Of a stretch of 11,866 nucleotides of DNA, positions 6,409-11,866 are shown in pieces. Where the stretch lies: contig JAILCJ010000088.1 of assembly GCA_024680445.1 (NCBI GenBank), forward strand, positions 1 through 11,866, in the 5' to 3' direction. The first letter of the stretch is position 1. Each line of letters starts with the position of its first letter. The position numbers were made by a program, and so were the translations under genes. Under the pieces are notes generated by a model. It saw only the letters and a list, made by a program, of their open reading frames with translations. It was not told where the DNA came from and made no database searches. This DNA is from Campylobacter sp. (GTDB lineage Bacteria; Campylobacterota; Campylobacteria; Campylobacterales; Campylobacteraceae).

Positions 6409-6417
6409 ATTACATTT

Positions 6418-6457
6418 AACCAAATCTCAAAGCTTTAAGCCAAGAGATTTGGTTTTT
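6418..6457 (+). terminator. Rho-independent terminator after petC
   Basis: An uninterrupted 11-base stem, AACCAAATCTC (6418-6428) pairing with GAGATTTGGTT (6444-6454), around a 15-base loop. Its 3' arm runs straight into T residues, giving five Ts at 6453-6457. It begins 9 bases after the petC stop and closes the petABC operon. The U-tract is short, but the perfect stem makes this convincing. Confidence 0.8.
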
Positions 6458-6483
6458 ATAACTTCGTATATTTCTTAAAACAT

Positions 6484-6501
6484 TATAAATTTAAATTTAT
6501 A
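6484..6501. promoter_or_regulatory. 18-bp perfect AT palindrome in the cluster's upstream region
   Basis: TATAAATTTAAATTTATA reads the same on both strands. It lies about 100 bases upstream of the first cluster gene and could be an operator half-site pair. It is pure A/T in AT-rich DNA, so chance is a real alternative. Confidence 0.25.
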
Positions 6502-6502
6502 C

Positions 6503-6574
6503 AAAAATTTATCTTTACTACAAAAGTACAAAGAAAGTGAAATTTTAGTAAAATTTACTCTAAAAATTTATCTT
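6503..6574 (+). repeat. Pair of 13-bp direct repeats flanking the cluster promoter
   Basis: AAAAATTTATCTT occurs at 6503-6515 and again at 6562-6574, 59 bases apart. One copy lies upstream of the -10 candidate and one in the leader, just before the AGGA ribosome binding site (6575-6578). The span between them includes the 6540-6556 palindrome. Confidence 0.45.
6540..6556 (+). promoter_or_regulatory. Probable promoter -10 of the biosynthetic cluster inside a palindrome
   Basis: TAAAAT at 6549-6554 is a 5/6 match to the -10 consensus, 30 bases before the ATG at 6585. It lies within the inverted repeat AAATTTTA-g-TAAAATTT (6540-6556), so a protein bound there would block the promoter. With the terminator just upstream, the cluster needs its own promoter, which supports the call. 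The exact element is uncertain because the DNA is A/T-rich. Confidence 0.4.
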
Positions 6575-6584
6575 AGGAAAAAAT

Positions 6585-7619
6585 ATGCAAAAACAAACAA
6601 AAATTCAACCATTCACTATTTTGGGTGGCGGAGTTGCTTTACCAAAAAAAGAAATTTTAGCAAAAGATTTAGACGAAAAACTAAATTTACCAAAGGGCAG
6701 TATTCAAAAAGCCGGTGCCAACAAACGTTTTTTTATATCAAAAAATGAAACTACTGACTTACTTATACAAACAGCAGTATCAAAAGCATTAAATTTGGCA
6801 AATCTTCGACTAGATGAAATAGAGTGCATAATAGATGCTTCGGCTAGTATGCGACAGGCTATACCATTTAATGCTGCAAATGTTTGTAGAGTACTCGGTT
6901 TATCTGGTATACCTGCATTTGATGTAAATATGACTTGCTTAGGAGCTTTACAAGCAATGTCATTAGCATCAAATTTATTTAATGAATATAAATATATTTT
7001 AATACTATGTTGTGAAATCGCATCAGTAGGTTTGGATAAACAAGATTTACATTCTTTTGCCTTATTTGGCGATGGAGCAACAGCACTTATAGTTTCACCA
7101 TCAAAAAGCGGTGGAATTTTAAATAAAAATTTTGCCGTTTACCCAAATGGTTATGATTATTGTCAAATTCAAGGTGGCGGCTGGGCTTGCCATCCTATTC
7201 ATTTTCCCAAAGAAACTTTATTATCTGATTATGTACAATACACACAATTTCACATGGATGGAAAACGATTATATAAACTAACTGCCGATGTTATGCCTGA
7301 TTTTTTAGAAAAAAATTTAAAAAGCATAAATTTATCTTTATCAGACATAGATTTTATAGTACCCCATCAAGCATCACGAGGGGCTTTAAAACATTTATCT
7401 GCAAAATTACATATAAAACCAGAAAAAATAATAAATATTTTTGAACAATATGGCAATCAAATAGCAGCCTCATTACCACATGCTTTAATTTATTTATTAA
7501 ACAATAAAACGCTTAAAGGCGGTGACAAAATATTATTAGTAGGCACTTCAGCCGGACTAGGTCTAGGTATGCTTGTTTGGGAAATTCCACAAGAATTTAT
7601 AAATTTTAAAAGCAAATAG
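6585..7619 (+). CDS. KASIII/thiolase-fold condensing enzyme (FabH- or OleA-like)
   Basis: A 344-residue member of the beta-ketoacyl-ACP synthase III family, which forms a carbon-carbon bond between an enzyme-bound acyl group and a second acyl thioester. The catalytic triad is complete. C118 lies in D-V-N-M-T-C-L-G-A, H261 in I-V-P-H-Q-A-S-R, and N291 in Y-G-N-Q-I-A-A-S-L-P. A Cys-His-Asn triad fits condensation, whereas CerJ-type acyltransferases lose the Asn. The C-terminal glycine-rich loop is G-T-S-A-G-L-G-L-G (320-328). It is probably not the housekeeping FabH, since it sits in an accessory operon with its own promoter and downstream tailoring genes. The start ATG has AGGA at 6575-6578. 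It is followed seven bases later by the reductase gene. Substrate unknown. The alternatives are chain initiation with an acyl-CoA and malonyl-ACP, or OleA-like head-to-head condensation. Confidence 0.85.
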   Translation: MQKQTKIQPFTILGGGVALPKKEILAKDLDEKLNLPKGSIQKAGANKRFFISKNETTDLLIQTAVSKALNLANLRLDEIECIIDASASMRQAIPFNAANVCRVLGLSGIPAFDVNMTCLGALQAMSLASNLFNEYKYILILCCEIASVGLDKQDLHSFALFGDGATALIVSPSKSGGILNKNFAVYPNGYDYCQIQGGGWACHPIHFPKETLLSDYVQYTQFHMDGKRLYKLTADVMPDFLEKNLKSINLSLSDIDFIVPHQASRGALKHLSAKLHIKPEKIINIFEQYGNQIAASLPHALIYLLNNKTLKGGDKILLVGTSAGLGLGMLVWEIPQEFINFKSK

Positions 7620-7626
7620 GGAAAAA

Positions 7627-8634
7627 ATGAAAGCTATAGTAACAGGTGCCACTGGTGGATTGGGACGACATTTAACTTCTACTTTATTAGAACACGGGTG
7701 GGAAGTTTTAGCTTTTGGACGAAATACAAAAATAGGTAAAAATCTCGCAACAAATTTTGTAGCATTTGATTTAAGCGATACAAAAGCTACTCTTCAAGCA
7801 TGGCAAAGTACTGACATAGTATTTCATTGTGCTGCTTTATCGTCACCATGGGGAAAATTTTCGGATTTCGAAGCGGCAAATATTAAAGCTACGCAAAATG
7901 CGATTTTAGCTGCCGAACAAATGGGTTGCGAACGATTTATTCATGTTTCTACACCAAGCATTTATTTTGATTTTACAGATCATATAAATGTCAAAGAAAA
8001 TTATGTCGCTAAAAATTTTGCAAATCATTATGCCGCAAGTAAATTTCAAGCGGAAAATTGCATTGCAAACGCTAAATTGAAAAGCATCATAATAAGGCCA
8101 AGAGGACTTTTTGGTGAATATGATACGGCACTATTGCCTCGCTTAACTCGTCTAGCGCAAAAAGGTTTTTTGCCACTAATCAAACGCAAGAATCGTCAAG
8201 CTGGGGATGCTTTAATAGATACAACTTACATCGGAAATGTTGTTTTGGCAATGATGGCAGCAACAACTTGTCAAATTCCAAGCAAAACATCATCTGATAA
8301 TTTATTTTTTAAAAATAAAACACCAGTATTTAACATTAGTAATAATGAACCAAAAACTATAAAAGAAATTTTCCTAATGATTTCAGAAATCTTACATTGG
8401 GATATTCGTTTTAAAAATGTTTCGTACGGACTTTTGGATACGGCAGCAAAAATAATGGAAATATTCTCACCTTATAATAAAGAACCTATTTTAACTCGTT
8501 ATTCTGCTGGCGTTTGTGCTTTTGATCAAACATTAAATATTACAGCTGCACAAAAATATTTAAATTACAATCCTATTTTTTCTTTATCAGAAGGTTTAGA
8601 GCGTTATGCAAAATATATCGCCACAAAACATTGA
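7627..8634 (+). CDS. NAD(P)-dependent extended SDR (3-beta-HSD/OleD-like reductase)
   Basis: A 335-residue extended short-chain dehydrogenase/reductase of the epimerase/3-beta-hydroxysteroid dehydrogenase group. The cofactor loop T-G-A-T-G-G-L-G is at residues 6-13. The segment G-R-N at 31-33 ends the second strand, where an arginine often favours NADPH. The motif V-F-H-C-A-A is at 65-70, the active-site Ser/Thr lies in V-S-T-P-S (107-111), and the catalytic pair is Y135-A-A-S-K139. The stretches S-P-W-G, R-P-R-G-L-F-G, and near the C-terminus P-I-L-T-R-Y and Y-N-P-I-F-S-L-S-E-G-L resemble OleD-type enzymes, which reduce a 2-alkyl-3-keto acid. The likely job is to reduce the keto product of the condensing enzyme seven bases upstream. 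A sugar epimerase role is possible but less consistent with the neighbours. AGGGA overlapping the previous stop gives the ribosome binding site. Confidence 0.85.
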   Translation: MKAIVTGATGGLGRHLTSTLLEHGWEVLAFGRNTKIGKNLATNFVAFDLSDTKATLQAWQSTDIVFHCAALSSPWGKFSDFEAANIKATQNAILAAEQMGCERFIHVSTPSIYFDFTDHINVKENYVAKNFANHYAASKFQAENCIANAKLKSIIIRPRGLFGEYDTALLPRLTRLAQKGFLPLIKRKNRQAGDALIDTTYIGNVVLAMMAATTCQIPSKTSSDNLFFKNKTPVFNISNNEPKTIKEIFLMISEILHWDIRFKNVSYGLLDTAAKIMEIFSPYNKEPILTRYSAGVCAFDQTLNITAAQKYLNYNPIFSLSEGLERYAKYIATKH

Positions 8635-9421
8635 TTTTTATCATACTGGCTATTGCAAACATCCGTCTTGTATAGCATGTCGAGGTAGCGGTTTACGACC
8701 CGCCCATTTTCCAGCTATGGCAGCACATATTCATGAAGGCGGAGGTATACTTTTTGATACAGGCTATGCCAAACGCTTTAAAACAGCGACAAAAACTTTT
8801 CCAGAGTGTTTATATGCACTCACAACACCAGTAAACTTTAATAAAAAACCATTAATAGAACAATTAGGTCAAAACGCTCAAAAAATTTCTAAAATTTTCT
8901 TATCACATTTGCACGCTGATCATATCGCCGGTCTAATCGATTTTCCACAAAGGGAAATCATTTGTTCAAAATCAGCTTTAAATTTTGCACTAAGCTCTAT
9001 TTCATCTTGGCTAAAACTCAAACAAGGATTTTTACCGCAACTTTTACCACACGATTTTCAAAAACGAGTAAGTTTAATCGAAAATTTTCCACTTATCAAC
9101 TTACCACCAGATCTTCGACCTTTTAAGACTGGTTATGAAATCGCAAAAGGCGTAGTTGCGATCGAATTAGCTGGTCACGCTGTTGGACATTATGGCATTT
9201 GGACACAAAATGTTTTGCTTATAGCCGATGCAGCTTGGCGTATAGAAAATATTACACAAAACCAACCACCGCATTGGTTAAGTGCTTTAATAATGCACAA
9301 TTATGCTGATTTTTGCCAAAATTTAAAAAATTTACAAGAACTTCATCAGCATAATCCAAATTTACATATAATCCCTTCGCATTGCGAAAAAACATTATCA
9401 AATTTATGGAAAAATACATGA
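8606..9421 (+). CDS. Metallo-beta-lactamase-fold hydrolase
   Basis: A 271-residue hydrolase with a complete two-metal site: H101-L-H103-A-D105-H106, then H191 (in A-G-H-A-V-G-H), D208 (in I-A-D-A-A-W) and H259 (in P-S-H-C). An L-F-D-T-G-Y segment at 49-54 is typical of the lactonase/glyoxalase II branch. This fold hydrolyses esters, thioesters or lactones, and a role as pathway thioesterase or lactonase is an inference. Before the fold there is a cysteine cluster, C17-x4-C22-x2-C25, with histidines at 13 and 19, which might bind a further metal. No signal peptide is seen, so the protein is cytoplasmic. The ATG overlaps the reductase gene by 29 bases with TAGAG as a weak ribosome binding site. 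No other standard start is available before the conserved N-terminal H-T-G-Y-C. The stop overlaps the next start as ATGA. Confidence 0.87.
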   Translation: MQNISPQNIDFYHTGYCKHPSCIACRGSGLRPAHFPAMAAHIHEGGGILFDTGYAKRFKTATKTFPECLYALTTPVNFNKKPLIEQLGQNAQKISKIFLSHLHADHIAGLIDFPQREIICSKSALNFALSSISSWLKLKQGFLPQLLPHDFQKRVSLIENFPLINLPPDLRPFKTGYEIAKGVVAIELAGHAVGHYGIWTQNVLLIADAAWRIENITQNQPPHWLSALIMHNYADFCQNLKNLQELHQHNPNLHIIPSHCEKTLSNLWKNT

Positions 9422-10686
9422 AAATTTCTAAATTAGCCATCTTAAGCTCTTTTTTACAAACCAAACATTTTACATCACTAAAAAAATTAAAACAATTTCA
9501 AGAAAAACGTTTGCATAAAATTTTATCTAACCATAAAAATCGTTTCTATCCGCAATCATTATCTTTGCAAGATTATCCTATTATCGATAAAGCTATTTTT
9601 ATGGCAAATTTTGATCGCATTAATACCATCGGCATTAGTGAAAAAGAAGCGCTCGATCTTGCTTTAAAAGCTGAAAATAGTCGTGATTTTTCACCGGTAT
9701 TACATACATCACAAGGCGATATAGTAGTTGGTTTATCATCCGGCACTTCTGGAAGTCGTGGCATTTTTTTGCTCTCACAAAAAGAGTGTGCCATGTGGGC
9801 AGGGTATATATTAAAACGTATGCTACCAAAACCATATTTTAAAAAACGAAAAATTGCATTTTTTTTAAGAGCTGATAGTCATTTATATCATAGCGTGGGC
9901 AGTCGTTTAATAAATTTCAAATTCTATGATTTATTCCAACCTCTTTCAGAACACATTAAAACTTTAAACGAACAAAATCCAGACATCTTAATCATGCCGG
10001 CGAATGCTCTAAAACGGCTAATTCAAATGCCAAATTTACATATCTCGCCACAAAAAATTATCTCAGTTGCCGAAGTTTTAGAAGATGATGCAAAAATACA
10101 AATCGAACAATACTTTAAGCAAAAAGTTTTTCAAGCATATCAATGCACCGAAGGTTTTTTGGCACATACTTGTGAATATGGAAATTTGCATTTAAATGAA
10201 GATGCAGTTTATATAGAATATGATTGGATAGATAAAAAAAGCGAACGTTTTTGTCCAATCATTACCGACTTAAATAGACAAACACAACCAGTTATCCGTT
10301 ATCGTTTAAATGATATCTTAACTTACGATAGCAAACCATGCCCATGCGGTAGCGTATTTACTCGAATAAAAAAAATTGAAGGGCGTTGCGACGATATATT
10401 AATCGCTAAAAATTTAGTTGGAGAAAATTTTGATTTATATCCTGATTTTGTCCGCAATGCCATTGTTGGATTTACACAAAATTTGCAAGAATTCCGTGTA
10501 GAACAAGATTTAGAGTATTTAAAAGTTTATATTCAACCTTTTGATGAAAATACAAGCGAACAAATAAAACAAGCTCTAAATCAAATGGCACAAAATTTAA
10601 AAATAATACCATTTAAATTAAAATTTTTTCCGTATCACGAACCACCATTACACCAAAAATTTCGCCGTATTCAAAAAATAAGGTAA
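9418..10686 (+). CDS. Adenylate-forming enzyme of the F390 synthetase/PaaK type
   Basis: A 422-residue member of the ANL-related group that includes phenylacetate-CoA ligase and coenzyme F390 synthetase. It probably activates a carboxylate as an acyl-adenylate with ATP. The phosphate-binding loop S-S-G-T-S-G-S-R-G is at 107-115. The adenine-site segment Y-Q-C-T-E-G is at 241-246, and the ribose-binding aspartate is in R-Y-R-L-N-D299. The C-P-C-G motif at 308-311 and the E-G-R-C-D-D hinge at 321-326 are typical of this branch. A basic R-R-I-Q-K tail ends the protein. The N-terminal F-Q-E-K-R-L-H-K-I-L segment also fits the branch. I place the start at the ATG at 9418, which forms ATGA with the preceding stop and has GGA seven bases upstream. 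A TTG at 9382 and an ATG at 9406 in the same frame are less likely. F420, the F390 precursor, is not expected in this organism, so the substrate must differ. Some relatives have been annotated simply as 'F390 synthetase-related'. Confidence 0.83.
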   Translation: MKISKLAILSSFLQTKHFTSLKKLKQFQEKRLHKILSNHKNRFYPQSLSLQDYPIIDKAIFMANFDRINTIGISEKEALDLALKAENSRDFSPVLHTSQGDIVVGLSSGTSGSRGIFLLSQKECAMWAGYILKRMLPKPYFKKRKIAFFLRADSHLYHSVGSRLINFKFYDLFQPLSEHIKTLNEQNPDILIMPANALKRLIQMPNLHISPQKIISVAEVLEDDAKIQIEQYFKQKVFQAYQCTEGFLAHTCEYGNLHLNEDAVYIEYDWIDKKSERFCPIITDLNRQTQPVIRYRLNDILTYDSKPCPCGSVFTRIKKIEGRCDDILIAKNLVGENFDLYPDFVRNAIVGFTQNLQEFRVEQDLEYLKVYIQPFDENTSEQIKQALNQMAQNLKIIPFKLKFFPYHEPPLHQKFRRIQKIR

Positions 10687-10690
10687 GCAA

Positions 10691-11791
10691 ATGAATATTT
10701 TAATCACCTCGGCACGTGCACCGGTAGCAGCAGAATGGGCAAGACTTTTAAAATCTGAAAAAAATCAAATTTTTGTTTGTGATAGTTTATATTTCCCTAT
10801 CTCCAAATTTACACCAAACGTAAAATATCTAAGACACGAAAATATTAAAAATAACTTTGAAGCATATAGTATAAGCATAAAAAAATATATATCCAAATTT
10901 GATTTTATCATTCCAACTTGCGAAGATATATTTTGGTTAGCGAAACTCCCATTAAATGATAATGAACGCAAAAAATGTTTAATGCCACCAGTTGAAATTT
11001 TATTGCAACTTCATAATAAATTTAGCTTTTTTAATTTATTGCCAGAGTGCGAAAATATAGGCATAGTAAAAACAAAACTTATAAAAGATAAAAGCGAAAT
11101 TGACTATAGCAAAGAAAAAAGCATCTTAAAACCAGTTTACTCACGTTTTGGACAAAAAATTATTAGAGATGTAAACCCTCAAACTTGTAAAAATCTAGAA
11201 ATTTCAGCAACTATTGCATGGGTACAACAAAAATTTATACAAGGTGAAAACTATTGTAATTTTTTAATTGCACAAAATGGGAATTTAATCGCACATAGTG
11301 CCTATCGTCCAAAATGGCTTATAAATAATGCAGCCGCAAGTTATTTTGAACCCATATATGACAAAAGAATTGAAAATTTTGCTCAAAAATTTTGTAAAAA
11401 ACTCAATTTTACAGGGCAAGCAGCTTTTGATTTTATAGATGATGGTAAAAAATTATGGGTTATAGAGTGCAACCCTAGAAGCACCAGTGGCTTACATTTG
11501 TTTTCTGGCAGAATCGAGCTTTCTAAACAAGGCGAATTATCATATTTAGGTCAAAGAAAAACCCAATCTTTGAGAGTTGGCTACTCTTTGCCATTACTTT
11601 TTTCTTTAAATGCTATTAAAAATAAAAAATTTAAAAAACTTTGGCACGATTTTTATAACTCACAAGATGTATTAAATCATCTGCCTTTTTATGCCCCCAT
11701 ATTAAGTTTTAGCGAATTAATTATCAAAGCATGCTATAACAAACAAAGTCTTTCAGCTGCTTCTACCGCAGATATCGAATATAATGGATAA
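10691..11791 (+). CDS. ATP-grasp domain protein, carboxylate-amine ligase type
   Basis: A 366-residue protein with the three-part ATP-grasp layout. The N-terminal Rossmann-like domain begins L-I-T-S-A-R-A-P-V-A-A and includes I-I-P-T-C-E-D near residues 73-79. The L-H-N-K-F-S-F-F element is at 107-114. The ATP-binding region has I-L-K-P-V-Y-S-R-F-G at 145-154, with K147 as the likely nucleotide-contacting lysine. The metal and catalytic segment is F-D-F-I-D at 246-250 followed by E259-C-N-P-R at 259-263. Enzymes of this fold join a carboxylate to an amine or thiol through an acyl-phosphate. The tail after residue 275 is less recognisable. The gene starts four bases after the adenylate-forming gene, with AGGT overlapping that stop as a modest ribosome binding site. 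It is the last gene of the cluster here. Substrates are unknown. Having both an adenylating enzyme and an ATP-grasp ligase suggests two carboxylate activations. Confidence 0.8.
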   Translation: MNILITSARAPVAAEWARLLKSEKNQIFVCDSLYFPISKFTPNVKYLRHENIKNNFEAYSISIKKYISKFDFIIPTCEDIFWLAKLPLNDNERKKCLMPPVEILLQLHNKFSFFNLLPECENIGIVKTKLIKDKSEIDYSKEKSILKPVYSRFGQKIIRDVNPQTCKNLEISATIAWVQQKFIQGENYCNFLIAQNGNLIAHSAYRPKWLINNAAASYFEPIYDKRIENFAQKFCKKLNFTGQAAFDFIDDGKKLWVIECNPRSTSGLHLFSGRIELSKQGELSYLGQRKTQSLRVGYSLPLLFSLNAIKNKKFKKLWHDFYNSQDVLNHLPFYAPILSFSELIIKACYNKQSLSAASTADIEYNG

Positions 11792-11837
11792 TTGATATTT
11801 TAAATTTATAAAACTTATACAAAAATGTTAAATGTAA

Positions 11838-11843
11838 TATACT
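11838..11843 (+). promoter_or_regulatory. Possible -10 box for a gene beyond the window
   Basis: TATACT, a 5/6 match to TATAAT, preceded by TGTAA in the noncoding 75 bases after the ATP-grasp gene. No ribosome binding site or start follows before the window ends. I see no stem-loop terminator in this stretch, so the operon could also continue. Confidence 0.35.
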
Positions 11844-11866
11844 ATGACATTAAAATATTCAATTAT

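Follow-up and report, generated by a model that had tools for sequence, protein, structure and literature searches.

A five-gene Campylobacter operon and a four-enzyme core conserved across bacterial phyla: a candidate pathway to a lipid with exchangeable head groups

What is made by five adjacent enzymes that come from known families, in a combination that appears undescribed? The question is raised by an 11,866-nucleotide contig of Campylobacter sp. (JAILCJ010000088.1, contig C169 of the 1.72-Mb, 226-contig assembly GCA_024680445.1), analysed here in its whole length as "the window". Positions 6585-11791 hold five complete open reading frames (ORFs) on the + strand, with no internal stops. 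They encode a KASIII-fold ketosynthase (KAS, 6585-7619), an extended, OleD-like NAD(P)-dependent reductase of the short-chain dehydrogenase/reductase type (SDR, 7627-8634), a lactonase-like metallo-hydrolase of the metallo-beta-lactamase type (MBL, 8606-9421), an adenylate-forming enzyme of family TIGR02304 (AMP, 9418-10686), and an ATP-grasp ligase (GRASP, 10691-11791). The best reading of these genes is that a core makes a hydroxylated, acyl-derived backbone and that modules add a head group, which in the window is probably amino-acid-like. The operon would then be one form of a widespread, lipid-type system, in which a four-gene core (KAS, SDR, MBL, AMP) is joined by an exchangeable head-group module, here the ATP-grasp ligase and usually also a FemX/MprF-fold transferase. 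This assignment is given an even chance of being right.

The ketosynthase matches Pfam ACP_syn_III and ACP_syn_III_C, carries a Cys118-His261-Asn291 triad, and scores below the cut-off of its top NCBIfam model (292 versus 402 bits). Its best matches in the Protein Data Bank (PDB) are MxnB (170.9 bits) and CorB (159.3), followed by FabH (111.7). A profile of the KAS family gives the same order, with 332.5, 327.1, and 267.8 bits. MxnB and CorB, of the myxopyronin and corallopyronin pathways, are thus the nearest solved relatives and, like the window KAS, have the Cys-His-Asn triad and no OleA-type glutamate. Both are standalone enzymes of polyketide synthase (PKS) pathways that make alpha-pyrones; we know of no SDR-MBL-AMP core beside them. 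In a tree of 37 rows, which held no OleA, PpyS, or CHS row and in which L115 was very long and five rows were unlike in composition, 33 rows comprising the family and MxnB/CorB separate from three FabH rows with support of 100/99. MxnB and CorB pair with a planctomycete protein (L086; 99/97), and the L008 ketosynthase is sister to that of the window (100/100). The window KAS reaches 166 bits against the FabH model TIGR00747 (cut-off 292.1). Ordinary fatty-acid initiation was rejected as its role because it falls outside the FabH rows and the same genome has a separate FabH-like gene, whose product (L114) groups with FabH. A third, very divergent KASIII-like gene adjoins an SDR-like frame on another contig of this genome (L115, contig C58).

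The reaction of the ketosynthase can be narrowed by a single position. PMC4578411 gives a glutamate as essential in PpyS and as the proposed base in OleA, with valine in MxnB and CorB. At this position (OleA E117/PpyS E105), the window KAS has isoleucine and MxnB valine. Membership in OleA was rejected because the catalytic glutamate is missing, and OleA-type catalysis is not supported. According to PMC5724707, MxnB is a two-tunnel enzyme that condenses two chains borne by carrier proteins. Within the MxnB/CorB group, condensation of two carrier-bound acyl chains is known for MxnB only. Since the window KAS is nearest MxnB and likewise lacks the glutamate, an MxnB-style fusion with a beta-keto partner is possible. 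A malonyl reaction is a possible alternative to chain fusion.

The SDR matches Pfam Epimerase/3Beta_HSD and contains the motifs GATGGLG and YAASK. Two OleD (2-alkyl-3-oxoalkanoate reductase) models rank best in NCBIfam, at 161 bits each against a cut-off of 580 for both. The MBL matches Pfam Lactamase_B. Its metal ligands H101, H103, D105, H106, H191, D208, and H259 are unchanged across all 30 aligned MBL proteins and follow the pattern of N-acyl-homoserine lactone (AHL) lactonases (HxHxDH, later H, D, H). The closest PDB profiles are the lactonases GcL and AiiA, and the best NCBIfam lactonase score is 44 bits against a cut-off of 325 (4-pyridoxolactonase). The Ole pathway (OleA-OleD) likewise joins a KASIII-fold enzyme to an OleD-like SDR and an adenylating enzyme. 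The operon could be a variant of it, in which KAS acts as OleA, SDR as OleD, AMP replaces OleC in making a beta-lactone, and MBL opens that lactone. The OleD models at the head of the SDR matches and the lactonase-like MBL agree with such a variant, which is nevertheless very improbable: isoleucine stands in place of the catalytic glutamate, OleA reaches at most 50 bits where MxnB reaches 171, the SDR lies far under the OleD cut-off, a TIGR02304 enzyme takes the place of OleC, and an MBL that of OleB.

The AMP enzyme is a member of TIGR02304 (443.7 bits, cut-off 251.9) and has the motifs SSGTSG and YQCTEG. NCBIfam 20.0 (June 2026) labels this family only "F390 synthetase-related protein", with no assigned function. 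GRASP exceeds the Pfam ATP-grasp_3 cut-off, has an ATP-grasp fold and the motif ECNPR, and scores 277 bits against PRK06849 (cut-off 406). Its putative role is that of a carboxylate-amine ligase joining a carboxylate to an amino group. An earlier note, made from the letters of the window, had described a compact operon of five enzymes from these families; the packing, the families, and the active-site residues are as it said.

Are the genes kept together elsewhere? A scan for AMP relatives, taking one genome per species, confirmed 429, and the best 80 by likeness to the window AMP were analysed with profiles from the window genes and their neighbours, counting families within 8 kb of AMP. Because the loci were picked by this likeness, their fractions cannot be extended to the family at large. 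All five families occur together at 61 of the 80 loci, in five phyla as judged from record titles (Pseudomonadota, Campylobacterota, Bacillota, Cyanobacteriota with L039, and Planctomycetota with L086, where KAS and SDR lie on the opposite strand). A chance neighbourhood was rejected on this basis, and the co-occurrence that the earlier note had proposed to look for is borne out among these loci. The remaining 19 comprise seven truncated where a contig stops (L019, L020, L025, L035, L042, L077, L078), one whose sequence covers just 2.5 kb downstream (L061), and eleven that lack at least one gene in the covered DNA. The steadiest unit is the KAS-SDR-MBL-AMP core, found at 68 of 80 loci; at 71, SDR, MBL, and AMP directly adjoin one another on the same strand. 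The proposed five-gene unit is real in the window, but the four-gene core is steadier and the window type usually comes with a sixth gene. The two main gene orders are KAS-SDR-MBL-AMP-GRASP in Pseudomonadota and Campylobacterota and KAS-GRASP-SDR-MBL-AMP in Bacilli; a further subfamily is arranged SDR-MBL-AMP-KAS. In Bacilli, the operon is repeatedly followed by another SDR gene, of the PRK06914 subfamily (L024, 11346-12230, and relatives; 26 loci). Two Neisseria loci (L010, L011) have the four-gene core only, with neither ATP-grasp nor sixth gene found in about 10 kb downstream.

The sixth gene is present at 59 of 80 loci and encodes a protein with a FemX/MprF-like predicted fold of the tandem-GNAT kind. 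A PDB sequence search with its profile returned nothing under E 0.01. It shares 7-13% identity with the aminoacyl transferases FemX, MprF, and Sbb17, and acyl-CoA-using GNATs score close to FemX/MprF for the predicted fold. Aminoacyl-tRNA-dependent transfer may be its role. A natural fusion of ATP-grasp with this transferase exists. At three Shewanella loci (L022, L037, L053), two or three successive genes belong to the sixth-gene family, as if several units were added one after another.

In the window, the contig terminates at 11866, and its final 75 bp (11792-11866, + strand), past the GRASP gene, do not contain the start of a sixth gene, unlike the related L008. Because the contig ends here, the operon may run on beyond the window. 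At the end of another contig of the genome (C65; L095, 4647-4774), a 42-codon open frame behind two unrelated genes resembles the start of the sixth gene (34 residues, 44% identity, E 1.4e-4) and is cut by the contig end. Further parts were not found elsewhere in the assembly. With the sixth gene missing downstream and only this 34-residue match at the end of C65, the pathway could be incomplete in this genome, its sixth gene displaced or broken and the five genes a remnant. This is quite unlikely, as none of the five ORFs is damaged or lacks its active-site residues, and the assembly is split into 226 contigs, with a contig end at each of the two places.

The neighbours of the core vary with lineage. 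A Rieske oxygenase gene occurs at 14 of the 80 loci. Glycosyltransferase genes lie beside the SDR-MBL-AMP-KAS subfamily, of UDPGT/MGT type in L096 and L029 (MGT score below the NCBIfam cut-off), GT4 type in L061, and GT21 in Fusobacterium L105; GT21 is a family with ceramide glucosyltransferases among its members. A unit of this subfamily in L076 adjoins genes for an acyl carrier protein, Acyl_transf_1, a ketoacyl synthase, and a phosphopantetheinyl transferase-type protein. An AMP-binding/PKS megasynthase adjoins KAS in L086, and an MFS-acyltransferase-AMP-binding fusion stops 1 bp before the KAS ORF in L098, with a similar fusion one gene upstream in L014. A plasmid protein search gave 25 records; 12 were examined with local profiles, and the four core genes occur together in 10. 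The core of Ketogulonicigenium and Paracoccus is accompanied by a divergent sulfotransferase gene and one of the TetR family. On Rhizobium plasmid pMK-2 (L110, 9319-11482), the core is flanked by a DUF3419 gene and then a member of the sixth-gene family (362 bits). An ATP-grasp match is absent from the examined stretch, as if DUF3419 replaced it. DUF3419, a family that includes BtaA-type betaine-lipid enzymes, had no match in a PDB sequence search. On Pseudomonas megaplasmids, the core is scattered over about 10 kb among other genes (L104), or no more than AMP and an ATP-grasp gene could be found (L109). A Paraburkholderia plasmid has a Rieske-type match split across two ORFs after the sixth gene (L107, 11603-12623).

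This variety agrees with a common core product, hydrophobic and hydroxyl-bearing, whose polar heads can be exchanged, though each neighbour gene taken singly may be a bystander. A stronger claim would make the core the source of a new bacterial lipid class, with a backbone formed by carbon-carbon fusion of two acyl chains and with heads (sugar, sulfate, aminocarboxypropyl-type, amino acid) that lineages swap in the form of gene modules; the class would occur in Campylobacterota, Neisseriaceae, Bacilli, Cyanobacteria, Fusobacterium, and about one-eighth of complete Escherichia coli genomes. We hold this claim tentatively and consider it rather doubtful.

From the families, active-site residues, linkage, ATP-grasp/transferase fusion, and differing neighbours, we infer what each enzyme does, in which order, and what head group and product result. 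KAS would act either on a pair of acyl thioesters or on an acyl chain plus an activated extender, joining them into a beta-keto or lactone product. MBL would open the thioester or lactone to a free carboxylate, and SDR would reduce the keto group to a hydroxyl. AMP would then activate the carboxylate as an acyl-AMP or CoA ester, and ATP-grasp with its partner transferase would attach amino-acid-like units, yielding an amphiphilic, probably aminoacylated lipid. Where present, the Rieske enzyme would oxidise the product. The acyl-derived lipid or small metabolite that the earlier note had envisaged agrees with this scheme.

The same enzymes might instead make a small secreted signal or antibiotic resembling the Pseudomonas quinolone signal (PQS). 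AMP would form an acyl- or aryl-CoA, KAS would extend it, MBL would hydrolyse the thioester, SDR would reduce the product, and ATP-grasp would add an amine. The PDB matches of KAS include PqsD and PqsC, and the PQS set (PqsA-E) combines an AMP ligase (PqsA), a KASIII-type enzyme (PqsD/PqsBC), and an MBL hydrolase (PqsE). Exporter-type genes also lie near some loci (ABC in L039; MFS in L022, L098, and L099). The lack of a carrier protein or exporter gene, previously reported from the window, is correct for the window, but both kinds lie near the core in some relatives. The window type differs from PQS biosynthesis in adding an SDR, an ATP-grasp ligase, and a FemX-fold partner, and the sequence likeness is weaker: PqsD reaches 87 bits against 171 for MxnB, the MBL is closest to AHL lactonases, and PqsE is not among its PDB matches. 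Lipid hydroxylase, desaturase, acyltransferase-fusion, and glycosyltransferase neighbours also suit a membrane-type lipid better, and a PQS-like product is judged unlikely.

In E. coli, the core adjoins genes for a PAP2 phosphatase, FA_hydroxylase, and FA_desaturase, forming a seven-gene stretch. It matches 672 of 5426 complete genomes, a count that reflects sequencing effort and not natural frequency, with 671 matches over at least 80% of the query and 671 chromosomal and 2 plasmid places. One chromosome and one plasmid were examined for context, and in both records the stretch sits between narI and purU (L113, NZ_CP082775.1, 4001-10882; L101, 6191-13072). One matching row is named O25b:H4-ST131. 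This prevalence means that a lipid comparison between strains with and without the stretch could address its product directly. With so common a form in E. coli, there is a slim chance that the pathway or this form is already described in subscription papers or preprints, which lay outside the search. No account of the operon or core was found among the open-access PMC papers listed, in keeping with the earlier statement that no pathway was known for the combination, and the NCBIfam 20.0 name points to none. The only open-access paper found with both "F390 synthetase" and "synthase III" was PMC2649909. Identity with its ladderane clusters was rejected; the paper mentions in passing a Desulfotalea gene annotated F390 synthetase. 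Conservation of the core across phyla beside differing head-group enzymes points to a type of amphiphile that has been overlooked, and the finding extends beyond the window to core genes widespread across phyla, many E. coli strains included.

How did the operon reach this genome? It was probably acquired laterally, because none of 36 other genomes of the genus carries it (no TIGR02304 match). The earlier note would have taken separation of the five genes in related genomes as a refutation; at 61 of the 80 loci they are together. The TIGR02304 cut-off is passed by one of 60 genomes, the window's own; by 7 of 397 genomes of the phylum, again including it; and by one of 14 controls (Deinobacterium chartae, not the E. 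coli control). Among named organisms, the closest AMP enzymes belong to Neisseriaceae isolated from the stomachs of roe deer and sheep (74 and 72% identity). The pairwise distances of the six proteins correlate in all 15 pairs (Mantel r 0.843 to 0.934, 60-96 loci, 0 of 999 permutations each), and the pair of ATP-grasp and sixth-gene proteins gives the strongest correlation. Three members of the set (L097, L099, L100) are near-certain duplicates and unlinked control genes are absent from it, so the correlation is evidence of joint inheritance only.

The genes are closely spaced, with a 7-bp gap between KAS and SDR, a 29-bp overlap of SDR and MBL, a 4-bp ATGA overlap of MBL and AMP, and a 4-bp gap before GRASP. 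Alternative in-frame starts for AMP are ATG 9406 and TTG 9382. ATG 9418 was preferred for its overlap with the MBL stop and for an N-terminus that matches relatives. A 176-bp gap (6409-6584, + strand) precedes the operon, and promoter-like matches in a promoter and terminator scan around the operon start were no better than chance. Upstream stands gmk, followed by genes that we take to be argS and petABC; the names pnp and universal stress protein are likewise our assignments. The genes downstream of petC differ in two relatives. The guanine-plus-cytosine fraction is 0.32 in the operon versus 0.35 in the first 6400 bases.
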